Of a stretch of 64,000 nucleotides of DNA, positions 1,036 to 12,323 are shown piece by piece; position 1 is the stretch's first letter; every line of letters begins with the position of its first letter. The position numbers and the translations under genes were made by a program. Below the pieces are notes generated by a model that did not search any database, had not been told where the DNA came from, and saw only the letters and a list, made by a program, of their open reading frames with translations. The DNA is from Carnobacterium viridans (GTDB taxonomy: Bacteria; Bacillota; Bacilli; Lactobacillales; Carnobacteriaceae): positions 1,116,001 to 1,180,000 of the forward strand of contig NZ_FNJW01000008.1 of the NCBI RefSeq assembly GCF_900102725.1, in the 5' to 3' direction.

Positions 1036-1178
1036 TGTTTTTCATTTACGAAGTAAGCAAAAAATCAAACTACTAACAGCGATTTCAGTATTACTATATG
1101 ACCGAAAAAACTTTAGAAGTTTTCACTAAAAAATAGTTGTACTCATTTTTCAAGCAGTATAACAATAAAAATGGATTA

Positions 1179-1187
1179 TTTCATGTA
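1179..1187 (+). repeat. Recurrent junction motif, copy 1 (perfect TTTCATGTA)
   Basis: Perfect copy of the 9-base motif found at gene boundaries of this region. It lies directly before the AAGGAG ribosome binding site of the gene starting at 1204. Confidence 0.6.
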
Positions 1188-1203
1188 TAGAAGGAGAGAC
1201 GTA

Positions 1204-1407
1204 ATGAAAATAAACAAAAAAATATTTTGGATTGTAGCAATTTCATATGCAACTGTAACGTTTCTTTTGAATAATGTACTTCATACAATTATAGGTAGAT
1301 TTTTAATGCAATTAAGCTACTTAGCTTTAGCCTTCGGATTAATTTTATTTATATATAAAATACTTACAATCTCAATCAAACAATTCGTTTACAATCGAAA
1401 AAAATAG
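1204..1407 (+). CDS. Small two-span membrane protein
   Basis: 67 residues starting MKINKKIFWIVAISYA, with two hydrophobic segments and a basic C-terminal tail (YNRKK). The start at 1204 is chosen because an AAGGAGAG ribosome binding site precedes it at 1190-1197; the longer reading from 1171 would run through the junction motif. No family recognised. The junction motif sits about 16 bases ahead of the start codon, as a cassette-borne gene would have it. Confidence 0.5.
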   Translation: MKINKKIFWIVAISYATVTFLLNNVLHTIIGRFLMQLSYLALAFGLILFIYKILTISIKQFVYNRKK

Positions 1408-1457: not shown

Positions 1458-1974
1458 TTAGAAACCTAATCTGAAGTTAAGTAAGGTTTCTCTGATTTCA
1501 TCTTCATTGATATCGATATAACGTTTTCTTATTTTTTCGCCGCTGTGACTGAAGATTTCCATCATAATAGCCACGTCTTTAGTTTTCTTGTAATAGTGAT
1601 AGCCTAATGTCTTACGTAATGTGTGCGAGCCAATATCGTTTCTTCCTAAAAGCTTAGCGACCTTCTAAAACATTGGATAGACTGTATTCACTTCTACATG
1701 TTCACCCTTGGTACTAGAAAACAAATAATTCTCTGGTTCTAGGTTTTTTGTATAGTTTTGAATCAAGTCCTGCAGACTATTCAAATATAAAATACGGGTT
1801 TTGCCTGTTTTTCATCAACGATTCGGGGATTTTTTGAGGAAATCAGACATGCATAAACTGCTATTAATGCCGATCAAAAAGAGAAAAACATCTCGATCCG
1901 CATTTTTATTGCGCCTTAAACAGAATAAAAAGTCGTTTATCTTTTGCTGAGTCCGTAATGGTAGGACATTTCAT
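1458..1974 (-). pseudogene. Decayed short tyrosine recombinase (integrase)
   Basis: Reading leftward from ATG 1974, pieces of one protein appear in successive frames: MKCPTITDS, then INDFLFCLRRNKNADRDVF, LFLIGINSSLCMSDFL, ILYLNSLQDLIQNY, and finally IGSHTLRKTLGYHYYKKTKD with HSGEKIRKRYIDI. The last part carries the family's HxxR box, second histidine and catalytic tyrosine (RYI). At least two or three frameshifts and an in-frame TAG (near 1664) break it. Repaired, it would be about 170-185 residues, the size of short phage-type integrases related to Bacillus YoeC that lack the usual N-terminal DNA-binding domain. Its start codon lies inside a copy of TTTCATGTA (1969-1977). It points away from the gene array on its right, as intI does in integrons. 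Confidence 0.75.
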
Positions 1975-1977
1975 GTA
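1969..1977 (+). repeat. Recurrent junction motif, copy 2 (perfect; overlaps integrase start)
   Basis: Perfect TTTCATGTA whose complement contains the ATGAAA start of the decayed recombinase. ATGAAA is a common gene start, so part of this match could be coincidence. Confidence 0.5.
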
Positions 1978-2005
1978 TCTCATATTATGTTACCCAACGT
2001 ATGCT

Positions 2006-3344
2006 GAGAGTGTAAAATATTTTGTGTAAATGAATAAAAACCATACAAAAAAGGAAGTCCCTTCTGTAGAATAAAGTTAACGACAACCAATTCACAGAAA
2101 AGAGGACTTCCCTATGAATGATTTTACTACAGAAATTGTACAAACACTAGTCACTAAAGGCGATTTAAATGGATTATTCCGTTCCCACTTAGAAAGAGCG
2201 ATAAACACCCTCCTACGGACAGAATTAACAGCTTTCTTGGATTATGAAAAATATGACCGCACTGGTTTTAATTCAGGTAATTCGAGGAACGGATCTTATT
2301 TCCGATCAATCAAAACCGAATATGGTGAATTAACATTGGAGATACCTAGAGATCGAAATGGCGAGTTTAAACAACAAACTTTACCAGCATACAAAAGAAC
2401 AAATGACACATTGGAAACTACCATTATCCATTTGTTCATAAAAGGCGTTACGATGTCTGAAATCGCTGATTTAATTGAAAAAATGTATGGACATCACTAT
2501 ACTCCACAAACCATGTCAAACATGACTAAAGTGCTGACTGAAGAAGTAAATGCATTTAAAGCAAGAGCCTTAAATGATAAGTATGTCTCTATTTTTATGG
2601 ACGCTACTTATATTCCATTAAAACGTCAAACCGTGTCCAAAGAAGCCATTTACATTGCCATTGGAATACGAGAAGATGGCACTAAAGAAGTACTAAGTTA
2701 TGCAATTGCTCCGACTGAGTCAACACACGTTTGGAATGAGCTACTACAAGATATTAACTCCAGAGGGGTTCAAGATGTCTTGCTCTTTATTACAGATGGC
2801 TTAAAAGGTATGAAAGACACCATTCATAAAATTTATCCAAAAGCAAAATACCAACATTGTTGTATCCATGTGTCTCGTAATATTGCTCATAAAGTACGTG
2901 TCAAAGACCGAAAAGAAATCTGTGATGACTTTAAGACTGTTTATCAAGCCAATTCAAAGGAAGAAGCGAATACTTTCTTGTCCTGTATGGTTGAGAAGTG
3001 GCAGAAAACTTATCCTAAAGTGACGCAGTCACTCATAGAAAACCAAGATTTATTGACTTTCTATGAGTTTCCGCCTAGTATTCGCAGAACCATTTACTCA
3101 ACCAATCTGATCGAGTCTTTCAATAAGCAAATCAAGAAATACAGCCGCAGAAAAGAACAGTTTCAAAATGAAGAATCATTAGAACGTTTCTTAGTATCCA
3201 TCTTTGATACATACAATCAAAAATTTCTAAACAGAAGCCATAAAGGTTTCCAACAAGTAACCGATACATTAGCTTCAATGTTTACTAAGTAACAGATTAT
3301 TTTGCAGAAGGGCGATTTATTTACACAAAATTATTGACGCTCTC
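2006..3344 (+). mobile_element. IS256-family insertion sequence
   Basis: The element carries one transposase gene. Its ends are imperfect inverted repeats: the left begins GAGAGTGT and the right, read on the other strand, begins GAGAGCGT, and both contain TTTTGTGTAAAT further in. The 8-9 bases flanking the two ends do not match cleanly (left flank ends CGTATGCT, right flank begins AAACGTAA), so no intact target duplication is seen. It separates the recombinase relic from most of the gene array. Confidence 0.85.
2114..3292 (+). CDS. IS256-family transposase
   Basis: 392 residues, full length for the family (usually 390-410). The mutator-type DDE residues are visible: aspartate in FMDATY (about residue 162), aspartate in ITDGLKG (about 227), and glutamate in TNLIESFNK (about 333). 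The protein also has the conserved CCIHVSRN stretch. No frameshift or internal stop is seen, so the element may be active. It would act in DNA cut-and-paste or copy-out transposition. Confidence 0.95.
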   Translation: MNDFTTEIVQTLVTKGDLNGLFRSHLERAINTLLRTELTAFLDYEKYDRTGFNSGNSRNGSYFRSIKTEYGELTLEIPRDRNGEFKQQTLPAYKRTNDTLETTIIHLFIKGVTMSEIADLIEKMYGHHYTPQTMSNMTKVLTEEVNAFKARALNDKYVSIFMDATYIPLKRQTVSKEAIYIAIGIREDGTKEVLSYAIAPTESTHVWNELLQDINSRGVQDVLLFITDGLKGMKDTIHKIYPKAKYQHCCIHVSRNIAHKVRVKDRKEICDDFKTVYQANSKEEANTFLSCMVEKWQKTYPKVTQSLIENQDLLTFYEFPPSIRRTIYSTNLIESFNKQIKKYSRRKEQFQNEESLERFLVSIFDTYNQKFLNRSHKGFQQVTDTLASMFTK

Positions 3345-3392
3345 AAACGTAAATTTTATATCTAAAAAAGAATATTTAATTTACTAAGTAAA

Positions 3393-3671
3393 TTAATCAT
3401 GCAAATACAAAGTTACCGTTACTATCTCTCCACCGCCTTTCCCTATAGCGTCTCTAATTTCCTTATTAATTGAAATGATTTTATCTTCATCTTTCCTTGG
3501 AGCCAAATAAATGTTTTTGACTTTAAAATCGTCAATTGTACCAGATACTTTTAAATGTCCCCATTTTCCTTTAATGTCAGCTGTTCCTGGAAGTCTAAGG
3601 TGATAGGTCCATGATCCAAATCCCTCTTTGTAATGTAATTCGAGTTTCTGATTGTCAATTATTTTTATCAT
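3393..3671 (-). CDS. DUF1905-like small protein
   Basis: 92 residues of beta-rich sequence: HYKEGFGSWTYHLRLPG, then GKWGHLKVSGTID, LAPRKDEDKIISINKEIRD, and the closing VTVTLYLHD. The order of an aromatic strand, a G-x-x-KVxGTID strand and a C-terminal lysine-rich helix matches the DUF1905 fold as I know it, whose function is unknown. It is probably cytoplasmic. It is the first intact gene right of the IS256 copy and is divergent from the gene at 3752, with a junction motif between them. Confidence 0.5.
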   Translation of the reverse strand: MIKIIDNQKLELHYKEGFGSWTYHLRLPGTADIKGKWGHLKVSGTIDDFKVKNIYLAPRKDEDKIISINKEIRDAIGKGGGEIVTVTLYLHD

Positions 3672-3713
3672 TTAAATAGCCCCATTTCTCATTAACTTTA
3701 TCTATAATTATGA

Positions 3714-3722
3714 TACATGAAA
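3714..3722 (-). repeat. Recurrent junction motif, copy 3 (perfect, minus strand)
   Basis: TACATGAAA on the plus strand. It lies between the divergent genes at 3671 and 3752. Confidence 0.6.
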
Positions 3723-3751
3723 CTATAACACATACTAGAATGGAGATTGTT

Positions 3752-4231
3752 ATGAAAAAAAAGAATATAGCTTTATGGACTATTTTTTCAGGTATAGTTA
3801 TTTCACTAATTCTTATTTTTGGTTCATTTAAAAAAGATGTATGGGATATAAATGCTAATAAATTAGAAGATTTAACTAATGATTTGAGCAATCCTATGGT
3901 TATTAATGACTTTTCAAAATGGACTCCTTTTGAATGGGACACGCTTTATAGCTTTACACCATATACTACAAAAGAAACTATCTATGAAGTTGTTGGATAT
4001 AAATGGGATAATATAAGTGAAACTGCCAATGACAATATGAATCAAATTGTATTTGTTAAAGACAAAAAAGTTATCTGTTATCTTTATGGATATCCTGAAA
4101 ACACTAATTCTAGCTATCATTTTGGCGAATATGAAGGTGAATACGTAACATTCAGTTCACAACAAAAATTATCCTTTGATACTGAAATTGGTGCAGATGG
4201 TATTAGATATTTTAATTCTATTAATCATTAA
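3752..4231 (+). CDS. Membrane-anchored protein of unknown function
   Basis: 159 residues. A basic start (MKKKNIALW) and one hydrophobic segment (TIFSGIVISLILIFGSF) predict an N-terminal membrane anchor. The remaining ~135 residues are soluble and rich in aromatic and acidic residues (DFSKWTPFEWDTLYSFTPYT, then YHFGEYEGEYVTFSS), probably outside the cell. The start at 3752 follows a GGAG at spacing 6; an ATG further upstream would place the junction motif inside the gene. I do not recognise the family. Confidence 0.5.
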   Translation: MKKKNIALWTIFSGIVISLILIFGSFKKDVWDINANKLEDLTNDLSNPMVINDFSKWTPFEWDTLYSFTPYTTKETIYEVVGYKWDNISETANDNMNQIVFVKDKKVICYLYGYPENTNSSYHFGEYEGEYVTFSSQQKLSFDTEIGADGIRYFNSINH

Positions 4232-4265
4232 TTAAATCCGATTCTCGACACAACGTTTCAAGCAA

Positions 4266-4274
4266 ATTCATGTA
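4266..4274 (+). repeat. Recurrent junction motif, copy 4 (one mismatch)
   Basis: ATTCATGTA preceded by TTTCAAGCAA, a context shared with copies near 5505 and 8971. It lies between the gene ending at 4231 and the toxin-antitoxin pair starting at 4344. Confidence 0.5.
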
Positions 4275-4343
4275 TTCATACCATTTTTTGACGTGCTTAA
4301 ATAGGGAAGTTACATAGTAAGAAACTAAAAGGAGGAATAAATT

Positions 4344-4589
4344 GTGTCAATCGTAAACCCTAGCCAAGCTAGAGAAGCCTTTTACCAACTACTGAAAGAC
4401 GTCAACAAAACCACTGAACCCGTCTATATCTCCGGTAAAAATGAAGCGGTTATGATCAGTAAAAAAGACTGGTATGCGATTCAAGAAACCTTATACATTC
4501 AGTCTTATGGCGTAGCGGGTGTGATCCATCAGCGTGAACAAGCAAATGAATTTGTTGCAGTGGAGGATATCGATTGGGATACTCTATAA
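4344..4589 (+). CDS. yefM: YefM/Phd-family antitoxin
   Basis: 81 residues, GTG start at 4344 behind a strong AAAGGAGG. The opening SIVNPSQAREAFYQLLKDVN and the segment PVYISGKNEAVMISKKDWYAIQETLYI are typical of YefM/Phd antitoxins, which bind the operator with the N-terminal domain and wrap the toxin with the C-terminal tail. The gene overlaps the downstream YoeB-like toxin by 16 bases, the usual translational coupling of these pairs. In this family the antitoxin, with the toxin as corepressor, normally represses its own operon. The pair sits between two junction motifs. Confidence 0.9.
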   Translation: MSIVNPSQAREAFYQLLKDVNKTTEPVYISGKNEAVMISKKDWYAIQETLYIQSYGVAGVIHQREQANEFVAVEDIDWDTL

Positions 4590-4840
4590 AGTTAGCAAAA
4601 TCAATGATGAAAGACCTTGAAAATTTAAAATCGGCTCCTTTAGAGCAAAAGTTTAAAGGCATAATAGAAGTTTTAAAAGAGAATCCATTTCAAAATCCAC
4701 CGCCTTATGTGAAGTTAGTCCGAAATTTAAAAGATAAATATTCACGACGATTAAATATCCAACACCGAGTGGTTTGCTCGGTTGATAATGACGCAAAAGA
4801 AGTCATTATTTGGTCGGCTTGGACGCACTACGAAAGATAG
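4574..4840 (+). CDS. yoeB: YoeB-family ribosome-dependent mRNA interferase toxin
   Basis: 88 residues. It starts with TTG at 4574, 7 bases after GGAGG inside the antitoxin gene. The block ILKENPFQNPPPYVKLV, then SRRLNIQHRVV, and the terminal WTHYE motif match YoeB. In that family a glutamate (here ENPFQ), an arginine (SRR/QHR) and the C-terminal histidine cleave mRNA in the ribosomal A site. Length is normal and all key residues are present, so an active toxin is expected. Confidence 0.9.
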   Translation: MGYSIKLAKSMMKDLENLKSAPLEQKFKGIIEVLKENPFQNPPPYVKLVRNLKDKYSRRLNIQHRVVCSVDNDAKEVIIWSAWTHYER

Positions 4841-4878
4841 AAAATCACTTTTTCCAAAGTGATTTTCTATCTTTTTTT
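4836..4878 (+). terminator. Rho-independent terminator of the YefM/YoeB pair
   Basis: A long perfect stem, GATAGAAAATCACTTT and its complement with a 4-base loop, followed by a T run. The upstream arm includes the toxin stop codon. Confidence 0.8.
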
Positions 4879-5036
4879 ACTTAATAAGCTTATTTCTTCC
4901 GGATAAACTATCGAAAAAGACAACGTGCAGTTAGCTAATAAACTCTTATTTATTTTAAAAAAACTAAAGAGAACTTTTTTAAATCAAGGTTCTCTTTCAT
5001 TGATTCTATTTAATTTTATGTATCTTTTATACGTTT

Positions 5037-5363: not shown

Positions 5364-5504
5364 TGAATTGTCCCCTAACGAGTTGTTATCAAATATTATA
5401 GCATTTCTCATTATATTTTATATCAACATATCAGTTTAATTTACATAAAATGAAAATACAAAGAGTCCATTTTTCAAATGTTCTATATGCACTATTTTAA
5501 GCAA

Positions 5505-5513
5505 TTTCATGTA
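5505..5513 (+). repeat. Recurrent junction motif, copy 5 (perfect)
   Basis: TTTCATGTA with TTAAGCAA to the left and TTGAAGTAGACA to the right; this right flank is shared with the degenerate copy at 8971. Confidence 0.6.
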
Positions 5514-5742
5514 TTGAAGTAGACATACTTGCGAGTGTATTTTTGATTTTAATTTGAAGATTCAATATTCTATAGTGACTTTTTGGTATTGCAGCCAAAT
5601 AAGTTATATGAGTATAACAGGTGACCATAACAGTTTCTTTTGTGCACGTGGCTTTGTATTTTATGTAAGTCACACAAATTCGATTGAATCAATATGAATC
5701 GATAGGTAAACTAAGTTAAGGAATAAGAAGAGGAGGCCTAAC

Positions 5743-6627: not shown

Positions 6628-6636
6628 TTTCATGTT
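6628..6636 (+). repeat. Recurrent junction motif, copy 6 (one mismatch)
   Basis: TTTCATGTT. It lies between two convergent genes (ends at 6595 and 6647), where a promoter element would make little sense. Confidence 0.45.
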
Positions 6637-6646
6637 TACAGCTGAT

Positions 6647-6883
6647 TTAGAAAACCGATAATACGCCATACATTAAGAAAAATCCAATAAGAGCTCCCAC
6701 TATCGCCAAGCCAGCTTTTTCTAAGTTCATTCTCTTCCTATTTTGTATTTTCGGATCATTTCTTGCTTTTCTATTATCCATATAATCTAAGATTTGTTTA
6801 TAAGTTTTTAGATTTTCTTTATCTTGGATCTTTTGAAGTTTAATAGCAGCATAGAACATGATCACTATAAAAGTAAATGGCAA
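6647..6883 (-). CDS. Small membrane protein, start uncertain
   Basis: About 78 residues. An N-terminal hydrophobic stretch (FTFIVIMFYAAI) is followed by a strongly charged region (KLQKIQDKENLKTYKQILDY, then RKARNDPKIQNRKRMN) and a C-terminal hydrophobic segment (AGLAIVGALIGFFLMYGVL). There is no convincing ribosome binding site: the possible starts are TTG 6883 or a GTG/ATG a few codons inside. The gene may have lost its 5' end near the junction motif at 6919. Family not recognised. Confidence 0.4.
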   Translation of the reverse strand: MPFTFIVIMFYAAIKLQKIQDKENLKTYKQILDYMDNRKARNDPKIQNRKRMNLEKAGLAIVGALIGFFLMYGVLSVF

Positions 6884-6918
6884 AATATTTTTGCAAGGCT
6901 TTTTACCTACGCGATTGC

Positions 6919-6927: not shown

Positions 6928-6958
6928 CTATTTAAATTTATATATCCGATTCTTTTAC

Positions 6959-6989
6959 TTGAACCTTACGTTACGTAACGATGTATGAT
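6959..6989 (+). promoter_or_regulatory. MerR-type promoter/operator of the hsp33-like-merR operon
   Basis: A -35 box TTGAAC (6959-6964) and a -10 box TATGAT (6984-6989) are separated by 19 bases, longer than the usual 17. A perfect palindrome, CGTTACGTAACG (6969-6980), fills the spacer. An overlong spacer with an internal palindrome is the hallmark of promoters activated by MerR-family regulators through DNA twisting. The MerR gene is the second gene of this operon. Confidence 0.75.
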
Positions 6990-7008
6990 AATTGTAGGGA
7001 GTGAAGAT

Positions 7009-7818
7009 ATGAAAAATTTAATTGGAAAAAAATTTTTGACAGCTAATAAAGCAGTTCGTATTTATAAAGTAGAAATCCCTTATGCCTCTATCCCTTCTCA
7101 TGTCACTAATTATTCTAATGGCGAATTTAAACTATTCTGTACAAAGTTGCTCATTAATGGGTGTTCAATGAAAGGGTTGCTCAATGACTATCAACGTATT
7201 AGCATCCGAATGAAATTTCCTGGAACTTCAAATACGATTTCTATTAGTATTGAGGGCAGTGGTTTTGTAAACATGTTAGCTTCAGAACGTTTAGCGAGTT
7301 TAGAAACATCTGTAAATACATTAATGAAGAAAAAAGAAGCTATATTAACCGCAACACAAGGAAGCAGTAACTTTGGGCAATCTACTAGCACAATTCCATT
7401 TAGTGAAACTGATCCTGATAAGATAATTCAGCATTTTTTTCAACAAAGCGAACAGATTGATACTGCGTTTTACACTCATTATTTTAAAGGACATTGGATA
7501 GGATATATGGTTCAAGCGTTACCTGGTGCTGACGTTGGAGAAGTTGAAAAAATTATAAGTAATCTAAGATCCTCTCACTCAGAAAATCTATGGCAACAGT
7601 TTGAAGCAGAATGGCTATTTCTTACAAATTTCCTTTTCACTACAGAGTGTTATTGTACAAAAGAAATGTATGGACAACTTTTATTGTCTTGGTCACACAC
7701 TGACTTAATAGAGTCAATTGAAAATAGTCATTCAGAAGAAATGGTTTGTACAAGTTGTGGAAAAAAATATCACTATACTCCAAAGGAATTATCGTTATTA
7801 CTAGGAAGGGAAGTATAG
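7009..7818 (+). CDS. Hsp33-like redox-regulated chaperone
   Basis: 269 residues, start at 7009 behind GGGAGTGAAG. The C-terminus carries the Hsp33 zinc/redox centre: CYC in TTECYCTKEMYGQLL and CTSC in EEMVCTSCGKKYHYTPKEL. The central part (SSNFGQSTSTIPFSETDPDK, then FYTHYFKGHWIGYMVQALPG) follows the Hsp33 core order. Hsp33 proteins hold unfolded proteins when the four cysteines oxidise and release zinc. The N-terminal core looks divergent, so this is probably a specialised paralogue of the housekeeping protein. It is followed after 3 bases by a MerR gene and driven by a MerR-type promoter. Confidence 0.75.
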   Translation: MKNLIGKKFLTANKAVRIYKVEIPYASIPSHVTNYSNGEFKLFCTKLLINGCSMKGLLNDYQRISIRMKFPGTSNTISISIEGSGFVNMLASERLASLETSVNTLMKKKEAILTATQGSSNFGQSTSTIPFSETDPDKIIQHFFQQSEQIDTAFYTHYFKGHWIGYMVQALPGADVGEVEKIISNLRSSHSENLWQQFEAEWLFLTNFLFTTECYCTKEMYGQLLLSWSHTDLIESIENSHSEEMVCTSCGKKYHYTPKELSLLLGREV

Positions 7819-7821
7819 CTC

Positions 7822-8544
7822 ATGAAAGAAACCTTTAGAATTGGTGAATTATCAAAAATGACTGGAGCTTCAATACGCACACTTCATTATTACGATGAAA
7901 TAGGACTTTTAAAACCATACAATGTGACAGAATCCAATCATCGTATTTATGATATCACTAACTTAGAGCAACTCTATATTATTTTAGGTTTAAAAGAATT
8001 AGGTTATTCATTAGATGAAATTAAAACAATTATTTTGAAAGATACAATTTATCTTTCAGAGTACGTATATGTCCAACGAGCTTTATTAGAAAAGGAAATT
8101 TCTTCGCAACAAAAGAAACTAGATAAACTGTTAAAATTTGAAAAGACATTAGCAGACTATACCGCTATTGATTCTACTCTACTTGCAGAATTACTTACCT
8201 TTTATCGTACCGACGCACAGTCTCATTTTACGATTCAAGAATTTAATTCAATGCGAGCTTTAGTAACAGAAAAAGAGAATTGGAAAGATCATTATTCTGA
8301 ATGGGCTAAATTTATAACTACTTTAGAAGAAGCCTATCAAGAACAATTTCCTTCTACCCATCCTAAAGTAATCTATTGTAAAACATATTGGAAAAAATTA
8401 ATATCAATGACTGATAAAGAACTACCAAGTGTATACGAAAAGACAGGTTACTTTCATGCTGAAGAATCGTCTAAAGATCTTTCATTCGGTTTAACAAAAG
8501 AGTTATACGTATATTTAATAAAACAAATGAACGATGATAGTTGA
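7822..8544 (+). CDS. MerR-family transcriptional regulator
   Basis: 240 residues. The N-terminal winged helix is canonical: FRIGELSKMTGASIRTLHYY, then DEIGLLKPYNVTESNHRIYD and LKELGYSLDEIK. A coiled-coil helix follows (about residues 88-112, EKEISSQQKKLDKLLKFEKT). The C-terminal ~120 residues resemble TipA-like effector domains in size and helix content, but I cannot name a ligand. It shares an operon with the Hsp33-like gene and most likely controls the 19-base-spacer promoter at 6959, so autoregulation is expected. Confidence 0.9.
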   Translation: MKETFRIGELSKMTGASIRTLHYYDEIGLLKPYNVTESNHRIYDITNLEQLYIILGLKELGYSLDEIKTIILKDTIYLSEYVYVQRALLEKEISSQQKKLDKLLKFEKTLADYTAIDSTLLAELLTFYRTDAQSHFTIQEFNSMRALVTEKENWKDHYSEWAKFITTLEEAYQEQFPSTHPKVIYCKTYWKKLISMTDKELPSVYEKTGYFHAEESSKDLSFGLTKELYVYLIKQMNDDS

Positions 8545-8552
8545 ATGAACAT

Positions 8553-8590
8553 CAAAAAACTTCAATACTAACGATATTGAAGTTTTTTTG
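8553..8590 (+). terminator. Terminator of the hsp33-like-merR operon
   Basis: ACTTCAATA and TATTGAAGT form a stem, with A and T runs on both sides. Confidence 0.8.
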
Positions 8591-8979: not shown

Positions 8980-8990
8980 GAAGTAGACAC

Positions 8991-9086
8991 ACTTGTAAGT
9001 GTACTTGTAATTGTAAGTGTACTTGTAAGTGTACTTGTAATTGTAAGTGTACTTGTAATTGTAAGTGTACTTGTAATTGTAAGTGT
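8991..9086 (+). repeat. Short tandem repeat of 12- and 18-base units
   Basis: Six units in the order 12, 18, 12, 18, 18, 18 bases. The short unit is ACTTGTAAGTGT and the long unit is ACTTGTAATTGTAAGTGT. Both are built from 6-base blocks, so the array probably grew by slippage. It starts directly after the flank of the degenerate junction motif at 8971 and is non-coding as far as I can see. Confidence 0.85.
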
Positions 9087-9145
9087 AGGTAATACTGTTC
9101 AGCTCCTATTCATTATTACTTACAGCAAAACTGGAGCTGAATATC

Positions 9146-9292: not shown

Positions 9293-9374
9293 TCTAAATA
9301 GCATATAAAAAGAATCGACTACTTAAAAAGCAACCGATTTTTTATATTAATCCGCTAAACTTAATTTTAGTCGT

Positions 9375-9647
9375 TCACTTATAACTATCTTTCCTATGCC
9401 CAATCTCTAACATTAAAATAGGGACTCTCTCGTCACTGATATCAGCAATTAAGCGATAATCTCCAATTCTATAACGCCATTCTCCTGAACGATTGGCGGT
9501 CAGTCCTTTTCCTTGTTTCCTAGGATCTGTACAATTCACTAGATTCTTTTGAATCCATCCCATAATTAAAAGAGACTGGTGCTTATCCATCTTTTTTAAA
9601 GCCTTTTGTGCTCCTTTTTCAAACGCTACTTGATAACCTGAATTGAT
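9375..9647 (-). CDS. RelE/ParE-family toxin with a lost start codon
   Basis: The fold residues of a RelE/ParE toxin are present: FEKGAQKALKKMDKHQSLL, then DPRKQGKGLTANRSGEWRYR, IGDYRLIADISD and LEIGHRKDSYK. The frame follows the antitoxin stop directly, but the expected first codon (9645-9647) is ATC, not ATG. The next ATG (9588-9590) would remove the first 19 residues, including the first helix. The toxin may therefore be silent, weakly made from ATC, or truncated. It lies downstream of its antitoxin on the minus strand. Confidence 0.75.
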   Translation of the reverse strand: MNSGYQVAFEKGAQKALKKMDKHQSLLIMGWIQKNLVNCTDPRKQGKGLTANRSGEWRYRIGDYRLIADISDERVPILMLEIGHRKDSYK

Positions 9648-9869
9648 TTAATCCGCTAACTCCTTTAGCATATCTTCAAAAGAAATACTTCGCGGATTTT
9701 CTTTGTGTTCAGACATAGCTTGGTTATATAAACCCAAATCAATTTCATCTTCAATTTTTTCTAAAACAGCATTTCTAAATAAAGTAGAAACCGAGATATT
9801 ATTAGCTTTAGCATATTCTTTAATCAATTTATCTTCGTGGTCATCAATTCTTAGGGATACTACAGTCAT
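9648..9869 (-). CDS. RelB-like (DUF6290-type) antitoxin
   Basis: 73 residues, ATG at 9869, 8 bases after AAGGAG. The N-terminal MTVVSLRIDDHEDKLIKEYA and NNISVSTLFRNAVLEKIEDE form a ribbon-helix-helix domain (DNA binding, self-repression). The acidic C-terminal tail (SEHKENPRSISFEDMLKELA) would bind the toxin. It is directly followed by the RelE-like toxin in the same frame. Confidence 0.8.
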   Translation of the reverse strand: MTVVSLRIDDHEDKLIKEYAKANNISVSTLFRNAVLEKIEDEIDLGLYNQAMSEHKENPRSISFEDMLKELAD

Positions 9870-9905
9870 TAGAATCAACTCCTTTTTTTTGTATACACAT
9901 TGCAG

Positions 9906-9914
9906 CACAAGAAA
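9906..9914 (-). repeat. Variant junction motif A (TTTCTTGTG on minus strand)
   Basis: AGCACAAGAAAC on the plus strand. The same 12 bases recur at 10947-10958. The core differs from TTTCATGTA at two positions. It lies just upstream of the RelB-like antitoxin. Confidence 0.35.
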
Positions 9915-10028
9915 CAGAAAAGTTTAAATTTAGTTTTTCTATAAAATGAATTAACGCACTCAAAAATTAACCAAATTAGCGGAAAAATCCCATAACCTAT
10001 CAAGGTATAGATACACTATTCTATCTAA

Positions 10029-10037
10029 TTTCATGTA
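10029..10037 (+). repeat. Recurrent junction motif, copy 10 (perfect)
   Basis: TTTCATGTA flanked by TATCT on the left and AGATA on the right, a weak inverted repeat around the core. It lies downstream of the small membrane-protein gene ending at 10074. Confidence 0.6.
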
Positions 10038-10073
10038 ATCAAAGATACAAAATAAAAGACTATCTATAATCAG

Positions 10074-10956: not shown

Positions 10957-11161
10957 CTATAAAATTTTATCTATCAATTAAATAGGACCTGCAATTCTTA
11001 AATTTATAAAAACATCAAAGAACTACATGCACTATGAAAATAGATGTAACGGGTACGTCGGATTTTGGACTATATTGTCACATTTCTCAATAACTCTTTT
11101 GCCTTTATCATAGACCGCCTTCTCTCCATTCTTTCTTTTTAAGTTTACTTTTTTATGCAGA

Positions 11162-11575
11162 TTAAGGACCGAAACCGTAAAAAGTTAAGATGAAAAGGGC
11201 ATATCCTAGAACAAATATTCCTGTCAATATAACGATAGCTCCAATAATTATCACATATTTCAAAAAAATTAAATAGATATCTGCGTTCATTATTAATTTC
11301 TTAAACAGCAGTATCAAAACTACTCCTAAAGGGATAAATAATAAAAAATACAGTGTAGCTAAACCATTATAGTAAATATTTATTCCTTGAGTAGGCAAAG
11401 ATGTTTTGAAAAATATAGAAAAACCTAATAGGAATACAATAAAGATTAAATTGACTGCAACAGAGTAAATATGAAACTGCTTTTTGTATTTACTAGGTAA
11501 TCTAAGGGCGAAACAGACTAAAACGTGTATTGCAGAGATTACGACTGCAACAAAAATATTTAATGGAAACTGCAT
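11162..11575 (-). CDS. Four-span membrane protein, paralogue A
   Basis: 138 residues from ATG 11575, seven bases after AAGGAG. Four hydrophobic segments (starting FVAVVISAIHVLVCFAL) and the ending FILTFYGFGP. It resembles the product of 11904-12323 in length, number of spans and the closing YGF(A/G)P signature, so the two are probably distant paralogues. The family is not recognised. The 290 bases upstream of the GNAT gene on its left hold only decayed junction-like motifs. Confidence 0.5.
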   Translation of the reverse strand: MQFPLNIFVAVVISAIHVLVCFALRLPSKYKKQFHIYSVAVNLIFIVFLLGFSIFFKTSLPTQGINIYYNGLATLYFLLFIPLGVVLILLFKKLIMNADIYLIFLKYVIIIGAIVILTGIFVLGYALFILTFYGFGP

Positions 11576-11767
11576 ATGAATTCTCCTTGTCATATCTAAA
11601 GATAAGTTATCCTTCTAAACATGAATTTTTTTAAGTTACGTATCAATAATAATTTCTTTAAAATTTAATGTCCAACCTCCTTTAATATTGAATTAATTAT
11701 ATAATAAAAAATACTCTATACATAGCACCCAACAGTTTACATAACGCAACCATTGGTTTACATTCAA

Positions 11768-11806
11768 CAAAAAAGTAACCGTATAAATTAACGGTTACTT
11801 TTTTTG
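11768..11806. terminator. Bidirectional terminator
   Basis: AAAAAGTAACCGT and ACGGTTACTTTTT form a stem with A/T runs on both sides, between the two paralogous membrane-protein genes. Confidence 0.8.
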
Positions 11807-11833
11807 TTTTTAAGAATGCTTTAATCTATCTAT

Positions 11834-11842
11834 TTTCATGTA
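11834..11842 (+). repeat. Recurrent junction motif, copy 11 (perfect)
   Basis: TTTCATGTA followed directly by a fragment homologous to the 3' end of the GNAT gene region at 10390-10434. Confidence 0.6.
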
Positions 11843-11849
11843 TTTAGAA

Positions 11850-11903: not shown

Positions 11904-12323
11904 TCAAGGAGCGAATCCATAATATAAAATTTCAAAGATAGGTTGTCCTAGTATTAAAATTCCAATTAATGCACCTACATAAAAAAATTGAAAGATTATT
12001 TTCAATAAGGCGAACTGATCTTGTGAGCCTATTTTTTTTAGTCCATACCATGCAAAAATAACTAACTGGGGTATAAACAACACAAAATATGAAATATTAA
12101 CAAATGTAGAAAAATTTGCATACACCTGAAATCCTACATCTCGGCTAGTCATTAAAAAAATAGATTCTCTGAACCAGAGAAACAGAAATGATGACTGAAG
12201 AATACATGCCAACATAGTAAGACTATAATTAATATACTTTTTTTCTTTTCTGATTAATAAATAAATACTTCCAATATAAATAATTCCCACTACGATAGCG
12301 TAGAATGGTTGCATTGCAAACAA
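11904..12323 (-). CDS. Four-span membrane protein, paralogue B
   Basis: 139 residues with four hydrophobic segments (FYAIVVGIIYIGSIYLLI, LACILQSSFLFLWF, NISYFVLFIPQLVIFAWYGL, FVGALIGILILGQPIF) and the ending LYYGFAP, close to FYGFGP of the product at 11162. TTG 12323 is chosen because AGAGGCGG stands five bases ahead; ATG 12314 is the alternative. Family not recognised. Confidence 0.5.
   Translation of the reverse strand: MFAMQPFYAIVVGIIYIGSIYLLIRKEKKYINYSLTMLACILQSSFLFLWFRESIFLMTSRDVGFQVYANFSTFVNISYFVLFIPQLVIFAWYGLKKIGSQDQFALLKIIFQFFYVGALIGILILGQPIFEILYYGFAP

Follow-up and report, generated by a model that had tools for sequence, protein, structure and literature searches.

A decayed single-domain tyrosine recombinase gene and its putative integron-like cassette array in Carnobacterium viridans, with related loci in Lactobacillales

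The decayed recombinase gene and its junction

In this work, a 64,000-nucleotide stretch of Carnobacterium viridans DNA (the window, here always meaning the whole stretch analysed) was found to carry a decayed single-domain tyrosine recombinase gene at 1458..1970 on the minus strand, as located by tblastn and HMM searches and by alignment to the intact copies L002 and L004. When its stops are read through, the product matches Pfam Phage_integrase with an E-value of 1.9e-12 and is 82% identical to the intact 183-aa copies of the same genome, which bears out the decayed tyrosine recombinase beside an array that the initial annotation had recognized. Its description there as YoeC-like was also apt, since this is a plasmid recombinase and the name YoeC is applied to plasmid-associated integrases (PMC4293149). 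The motifs HTLR (HxxR), FSHSG (second His) and KRYID (Tyr) are kept, as had been read before, and the loss of the catalytic Arg I by a change of GLRMSD to SLCMSD (Arg to Cys) had gone unmentioned. By comparison with the intact copies, the frameshifts and the TAG previously said to break the gene correspond to deletions of 29 nt and 1 nt, the latter of which puts the gene back in frame, and a premature stop (CAA to TAG).

The 5' end of the gene lies at codon 4, and the first codons and all upstream DNA are replaced relative to the intact copies. The true start of these copies is ATGAGTTACAATGTCC, and homology in the window begins only from AATGTCC (codon 4), so the ATG within TACATGAAA that had been taken for the start codon is not the gene start. 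The DNA directly before AATGTCC is a right half-site, ATTTCATGTAT, which is fused to codon 4 at 1968..1978 on the plus strand according to the alignment and the site profile, and the left arm, the terminator, the operator and the gene start are all missing at this junction. The start had further been thought to overlap the place of an attI-like site. Intact loci have that site 138 bp before the true start, and the apparent overlap in the window marks the truncation junction. The gene portion at the junction scores -18 as a left arm, i.e., it is unlike one. Because the gene side is not site-like, the truncation may have come about by an ordinary deletion as well as by recombination at a secondary site, and we regard the two as equally probable. 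By its sequence, the window copy is the putative head, now dead, of a cassette array of the integron-like type.

Organization of the cassette array

The order and polarity of the window match those of the intact unit described below, with the recombinase on the minus strand, the sites on the plus strand and the cassettes to the right. To the left of the recombinase there is another right half-site ATTTCATGTAT (1178..1188, plus strand, site profile). An IS256-family element (ISEf1-like) at 2005..3345 on the plus strand, identified by Pfam Transposase_mut and by 91-93% identity to ISEf1, separates the array head from the first cassette. It is followed by a DUF1905 cassette (3348..3727, minus strand, Pfam and homology), the end of which is formed by the left arm ATACATGAAAC and the first spacer bases (3714-3727); this cassette recurs on the genome's own plasmid contig C2 as well as in Enterococcus and further loci, and most copies stop at 3726/3727. 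The next cassette, for a 159-aa protein (3731..4275, plus strand), has a degenerate closing site at 4248-4275 and corresponds to a homology block of 3731-4279 in L234. A YefM/YoeB-type toxin-antitoxin cassette (4276..5023, plus strand, Pfam), with homology to Vagococcus L067 and Carnobacterium L041, is closed by a degenerate site at 4996-5023. At 5487..5514 on the plus strand, the site profile finds a full cassette recombination site, ATGCACTATTT TAAGCA ATTTCATGTAT.

Further to the right there is a cassette piece at 6628..6886 (minus strand) with 91% identity to L083, where it lies inside a 3,064-bp insert of Enterococcus durans, and a cassette with an Hsp33-like gene and a MerR regulator at 6935..8558 (plus strand), which is 95% identical in another genome (L048). 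A DUF6290/ParE-type toxin-antitoxin cassette (9305..10037, minus strand) is closed by a full site at 10011..10038 on the plus strand, ATACACTATTC TATCTA ATTTCATGTAA, which both the site pattern and the profile recover. A membrane-protein cassette follows at 11138..11843 (minus strand), with its closing site at 11816-11843 and a homology block of 11138-11844 in L051 and L052. LytTR and GNAT proteins were found among the further cassette contents. Several of the window sites are degenerate or half-sites, and parts of the array may no longer be able to recombine. Between two of the cassettes, positions 8990-9090 hold a tandem repeat of TGTACTTGTAATTGTAAG-like units. Furthermore, the adjacent cassettes at 11162-11593 and 11904-12323 encode similar-looking membrane proteins ending in YGFGP and YGFAP, respectively.

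The putative recombination site

A profile from 141 distinct sites defines the recombination site as 28 bp with an 11-6-11 layout, ATACACGTTTT-TATNNA-ATTTCATGTAT, and the site is nearly palindromic. The nine-base motif TTTCATGTA that the initial annotation had singled out is real; it covers the greater part of the right arm in this larger two-arm site. It was counted 7 times in the window versus 1.4 expected. Right arms on the plus strand, located with the site profile, start at 1178, 1968, 4265, 5013, 5504, 10028 and 11833; all seven are thus confined to the first 13 kb, and the profile scan gave no plus-strand right arms in the other 51 kb of the window. In the whole genome, 72 site copies were obtained with a 27-base pattern at up to 3 mismatches, versus none for the reversed pattern as the control, and some of the 72 are repeats within contigs resembling concatenated plasmids. 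The copies occur on plasmid-like contigs and, on the chromosome, chiefly in two clusters; within any one contig almost all of them point the same way.

A hairpin often occurs in the left flank of the site (mean z of -1.25, versus -0.12 in the right flank). The scan for terminator-like structures beside the left arm was positive in 59 of 86 cases versus 35 of 86 for shuffled sequences, a moderate excess to which we attach little weight. Inverted sequences around the recombinase promoter resemble the arms of the matching site type, so that the gene is probably autoregulated.

Intact recombinase copies and the enzyme class

Two identical intact 183-aa copies of the recombinase lie 17 kb apart on contig C9 and a further copy lies on C2, both being plasmid-like contigs of the C. 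viridans genome. The array had been expected to be frozen unless another copy of the enzyme existed; with these copies at hand it need not be, and the window array could still be served in trans by the intact recombinases from the plasmid-like contigs. A second chromosomal fragment, L213 (G000:C8:1440145-1440449), has the recombinase joined to the site inside the spacer (near C8:1440423). The gene-internal sequence ATCTGCGTTTT at that junction looks like a left arm, so the fragment may have arisen by recombination at a secondary site. Contigs C4, C5 and C9 appear to consist of repeated copies of small plasmids arranged head to tail (about 6.4, 6.3 and 17 kb, respectively), probably an assembly effect on circular molecules. 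The 3.3-kb contig L217 (G000:C1) carries a Rep-like gene and one site without a recombinase, together with a 70-aa protein related to window 1204-1407, and it is a possible cassette recipient.

The catalytic residues R43, K70, H129, R132, H155 and Y164 (R-K-HxxR-H-Y) are invariant in the intact copies. The modelled fold matches the catalytic domains of XerH and XerA, which are the closest PDB folds, and also Cre. The IntI profile TIGR02249 reaches only 28.1 bits against a cut-off of 265, aligned over 58 residues only, and it is outscored on the recombinase by the XerA/XerC profiles; the FimB/FimE-type profiles match weakly. As judged from these profiles and the modelled fold, the enzyme is a single-domain tyrosine recombinase closest to XerA/XerC/XerH, and not an IntI.

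Linkage between the enzyme and the site

Relatives with at least 85% identity were found in Carnobacterium, Enterococcus, Vagococcus, Alkalibacterium, Tetragenococcus, Marinilactibacillus, Pediococcus and others, including a 100% match in C. jeotgali. Among the 36 full-length loci of these relatives, 35 have a site 137-139 bp upstream of the start codon, and the orientation of this linked site is the same in 34 of the 35, the other direction scoring best in one. By comparing 395 Lactobacillales genomes, sites were detected in all 41 genomes with the enzyme versus 17 of the 354 without a close recombinase. The Fisher p for this co-occurrence is 2e-42; it counts the gene-adjacent site, and thus expresses linkage rather than independent association. 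The initial annotation had proposed to see whether intact relatives always lie next to such arrays; a tie to TTTCATGTA sites and arrays is borne out both by the loci (35/36 at the fixed distance) and by the genomes (41/41).

More distant enzymes are accompanied by other sites. Enzymes of 60-67% identity have a GTTCACTATTT-TATGTA-AAATCATGAAC-like site at about -138 (-153 in one locus), and the Macrococcus enzymes (45%) have TGTAACACAAT...ATTATGTTACA at about -127. Since both groups keep a two-arm site of their own at about -127 to -153, the enzyme and the site co-vary. In several loci of the 60-67% relatives (L221-L230, L097 and L098; Lactobacillaceae and enterococci), this third site type adjoins the gene; the loci fetched for this family contained single sites only, without arrays. 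The Macrococcus loci L103, L104, L106 and L107 have their own site type, in some of them as two or three direct copies, and possibly represent a second, diverged cassette system.

This linkage bears on the question of which enzyme acts on the sites. They could be pdif-like and recombined by the host XerC/XerD, with the small recombinase an accidental neighbour; the site does have the size and the 11-6-11 layout of pdif (PMC13141974), plasmid toxin-antitoxin modules are typical of dif modules, and the enzyme is absent from some site-bearing genomes. We consider it improbable, because an accidental neighbour does not fit the fixed distance in 35 of 36 loci, the co-occurrence in 41 of 41 genomes, or the diverged sites found beside diverged enzymes at a similar position. 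Moreover, pdif modules alternate C/D (PMC13141974), whereas the array sites here are almost all direct repeats.

The gene could also be the integrase of a decayed prophage or ICE, to which the TTTCATGTA motifs would be unrelated, given that the recombinase matches a PHROGs integrase family and that relatives of 43-45% occur in streptococcal phages. Phage integrases without linked repeats had been named as the outcome that would speak against an array enzyme; this holds for the distant relatives only (mostly about 43-45%), and not for the close ones, which have the site at a fixed distance and co-occur with it. Among phage records one reached 60% identity, the rest were lower, with the best mostly at 43-45%, and none reached 80%; Pfam scans of the neighbouring window genes matched no phage families. 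We hold this explanation to be highly unlikely. A plain phage integrase was rejected, as it is contradicted by the fixed-distance site, the co-occurrence and the single-insert differences described below.

Comparison of loci and probable cassette movement

In upstream alignments across many loci, similarity ends at the site. One right flank was found with at least five unrelated left flanks, and one left flank with eight right flanks. The ends of homology blocks fall within 10 bp of a site in 16% of cases versus 1.6% for random positions, and in 9.4% versus 1.8% after redundancy was removed. The right arm segregates with the right flank (59 of 63 pairs identical, baseline 0.38) and the left arm with the left flank (0.52, baseline 0.03), and the 6-bp spacer segregates with either flank (0.37 and 0.30, baseline 0.10). 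As the arms follow their own flanks and the spacer follows either, the exchange is placed within the spacer. A single crossover at the boundary of the spacer and the right arm, as in a single-strand integron-like exchange, was rejected for the same behaviour of the spacer.

The most direct comparison is that of L083 (E. durans) with L076 (E. hermanniensis), which are 99% identical over 5.85 kb + 1.36 kb and differ solely by the 3,064-bp insert, which lies between two direct sites in L083, while L076 has one site there. L077 (E. lactis) has a different insert of 1,206 bp in the same place, again with two direct sites versus one in L076. The shorter insert codes for a regulator of the ArsR type and for a transporter resembling CadD, which in L042 carries the annotation CadD family cadmium resistance, and the longer one holds relatives of the window cassettes at 3348-3727 (DUF1905, 92% DNA identity) and 6628-6886 (91%). 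Modules common to many plasmids would offer the opportunity for homologous recombination, by which the mosaic junctions could have formed without any site-specific step. This explanation is highly unlikely and was rejected as the source of the junctions, since the sequence that the loci share stops at the short site and the DNA past it is unrelated.

The cassettes have a median length of 977 bp and 1.5 ORFs, and in 64 cassettes 54 genes point with the site direction and 41 against it. Defence genes were not found by PADLOC among the proteins tested. The intact layout consists of the recombinase (minus), the operator, a terminator-like hairpin, the site (plus) and cassettes with plus-oriented sites, and it was seen on plasmids and in chromosomal arrays. 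The latter, with the recombinase at the head and one site direction, comprise L231-L234 with an intact enzyme, L235 with a decayed one, and L237/L238. The recombinase could also serve mainly in the resolution of plasmid multimers, and the arrays would then arise secondarily, through co-integration at the site of resolution. The recombinase is indeed widespread on plasmids, and many loci have one gene-adjacent site without an array; on the other hand, long chromosomal arrays exist, and cassettes recur singly in many contexts and are gained or lost as single inserts. Thus, we regard multimer resolution as the main role as conceivable though not likely. It is compatible with cassette movement, and both can be true.

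Proposed mechanism

The intact unit, as found on plasmids and some chromosomes, comprises a gene for the Xer-type recombinase of about 183 aa, an arm-flanked promoter, a terminator-like hairpin and the site at about -138; it heads an array in which cassettes of about 1 kb follow one another, with a direct site copy closing each of them. As the comparison of loci suggests, the recombinase would carry out the exchange inside the spacer of two direct sites, and cassettes could thereby be inserted or excised at the gene-adjacent site or at any array site. The window carries a portion of such a unit, located in the chromosome in canonical order and polarity. The stretch from codon 4 to the spacer of the attachment site would have been lost, which would explain the window junction: codon 4 would have been joined to the right arm, and the recombinase would have become inactive and then decayed. 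On this evidence, it is very probably a cassette system akin to integrons, driven by a single-domain Xer-type recombinase; IntI is not the enzyme at work, and the host XerCD probably is not either.

Relation to known systems and significance

The system resembles integrons in that the recombinase is divergent from an adjacent attachment site, in its cassettes of mostly 1-2 genes closed by direct sites, and in having chromosomal and plasmid forms. However, the recombinase here is a 183-aa Xer-type catalytic domain with 28 of the 265 bits of the IntI cut-off, the sites are short two-arm cores with the crossover in a 6-bp spacer, and the cassette genes point either way (54 vs 41). The attC sites of integrons act as folded single strands; left-flank hairpins are frequent here, yet the spacer follows either flank as in double-strand exchange. 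In the XerH/difH system and in archaeal XerA, a single recombinase acts alone on a dif-like site. These enzymes have the closest folds to that of the present recombinase, but they are two-domain proteins that resolve chromosomes, and the N-terminal core-binding domain is absent here. FimB/FimE-type invertases flip a promoter between inverted repeats. They are of similar size and consist of the catalytic domain only, whereas the sites here are direct and numerous. The pdif/dif modules of Acinetobacter also use plasmid 28-bp sites of 11-6-11 layout to swap small modules, including toxin-antitoxin modules (PMC13141974, PMC6449649), but those depend on host XerC/XerD and alternate in orientation, in contrast to the linked, dedicated recombinase and the direct repeats here. 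The predicted system is like an integron in layout and like a dif module in its site, yet each class has a hallmark that it does not share: it departs from integrons in the type of integrase and in the orientation of the cassette genes, and from pdif modules in that its sites do not alternate in orientation.

A published description of such a system was not found in open-access full text, and an earlier one is possible. Overall, we lean towards an independently evolved, integron-like mode of gene capture, in which a single-domain Xer-type recombinase with its own co-varying dif-like site, on plasmids and chromosomes, is widespread in Lactobacillales, has diverged versions in Macrococcus and Lactobacillaceae, and gathers and reshuffles cassettes, among them metal resistance and toxin-antitoxin genes. 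Gene-cassette arrays have so far been studied mainly in Gram-negative integrons and in Acinetobacter dif modules. If true, such a dedicated system would explain much of the plasmid mosaicism of enterococci, carnobacteria, vagococci and their relatives, among other things the spread of cadmium-resistance and toxin-antitoxin genes. The simple site pattern would allow cassettes to be mapped in existing genomes, and the study of site specificity would gain a small recombinase of a single domain, for which several pairs of enzyme and site that co-vary are available.

As a minor observation on distribution, a recombinase of 94% identity with window-like cassettes was also present in L066, a contig labelled Proteus sp., which is probably a contamination of that assembly.
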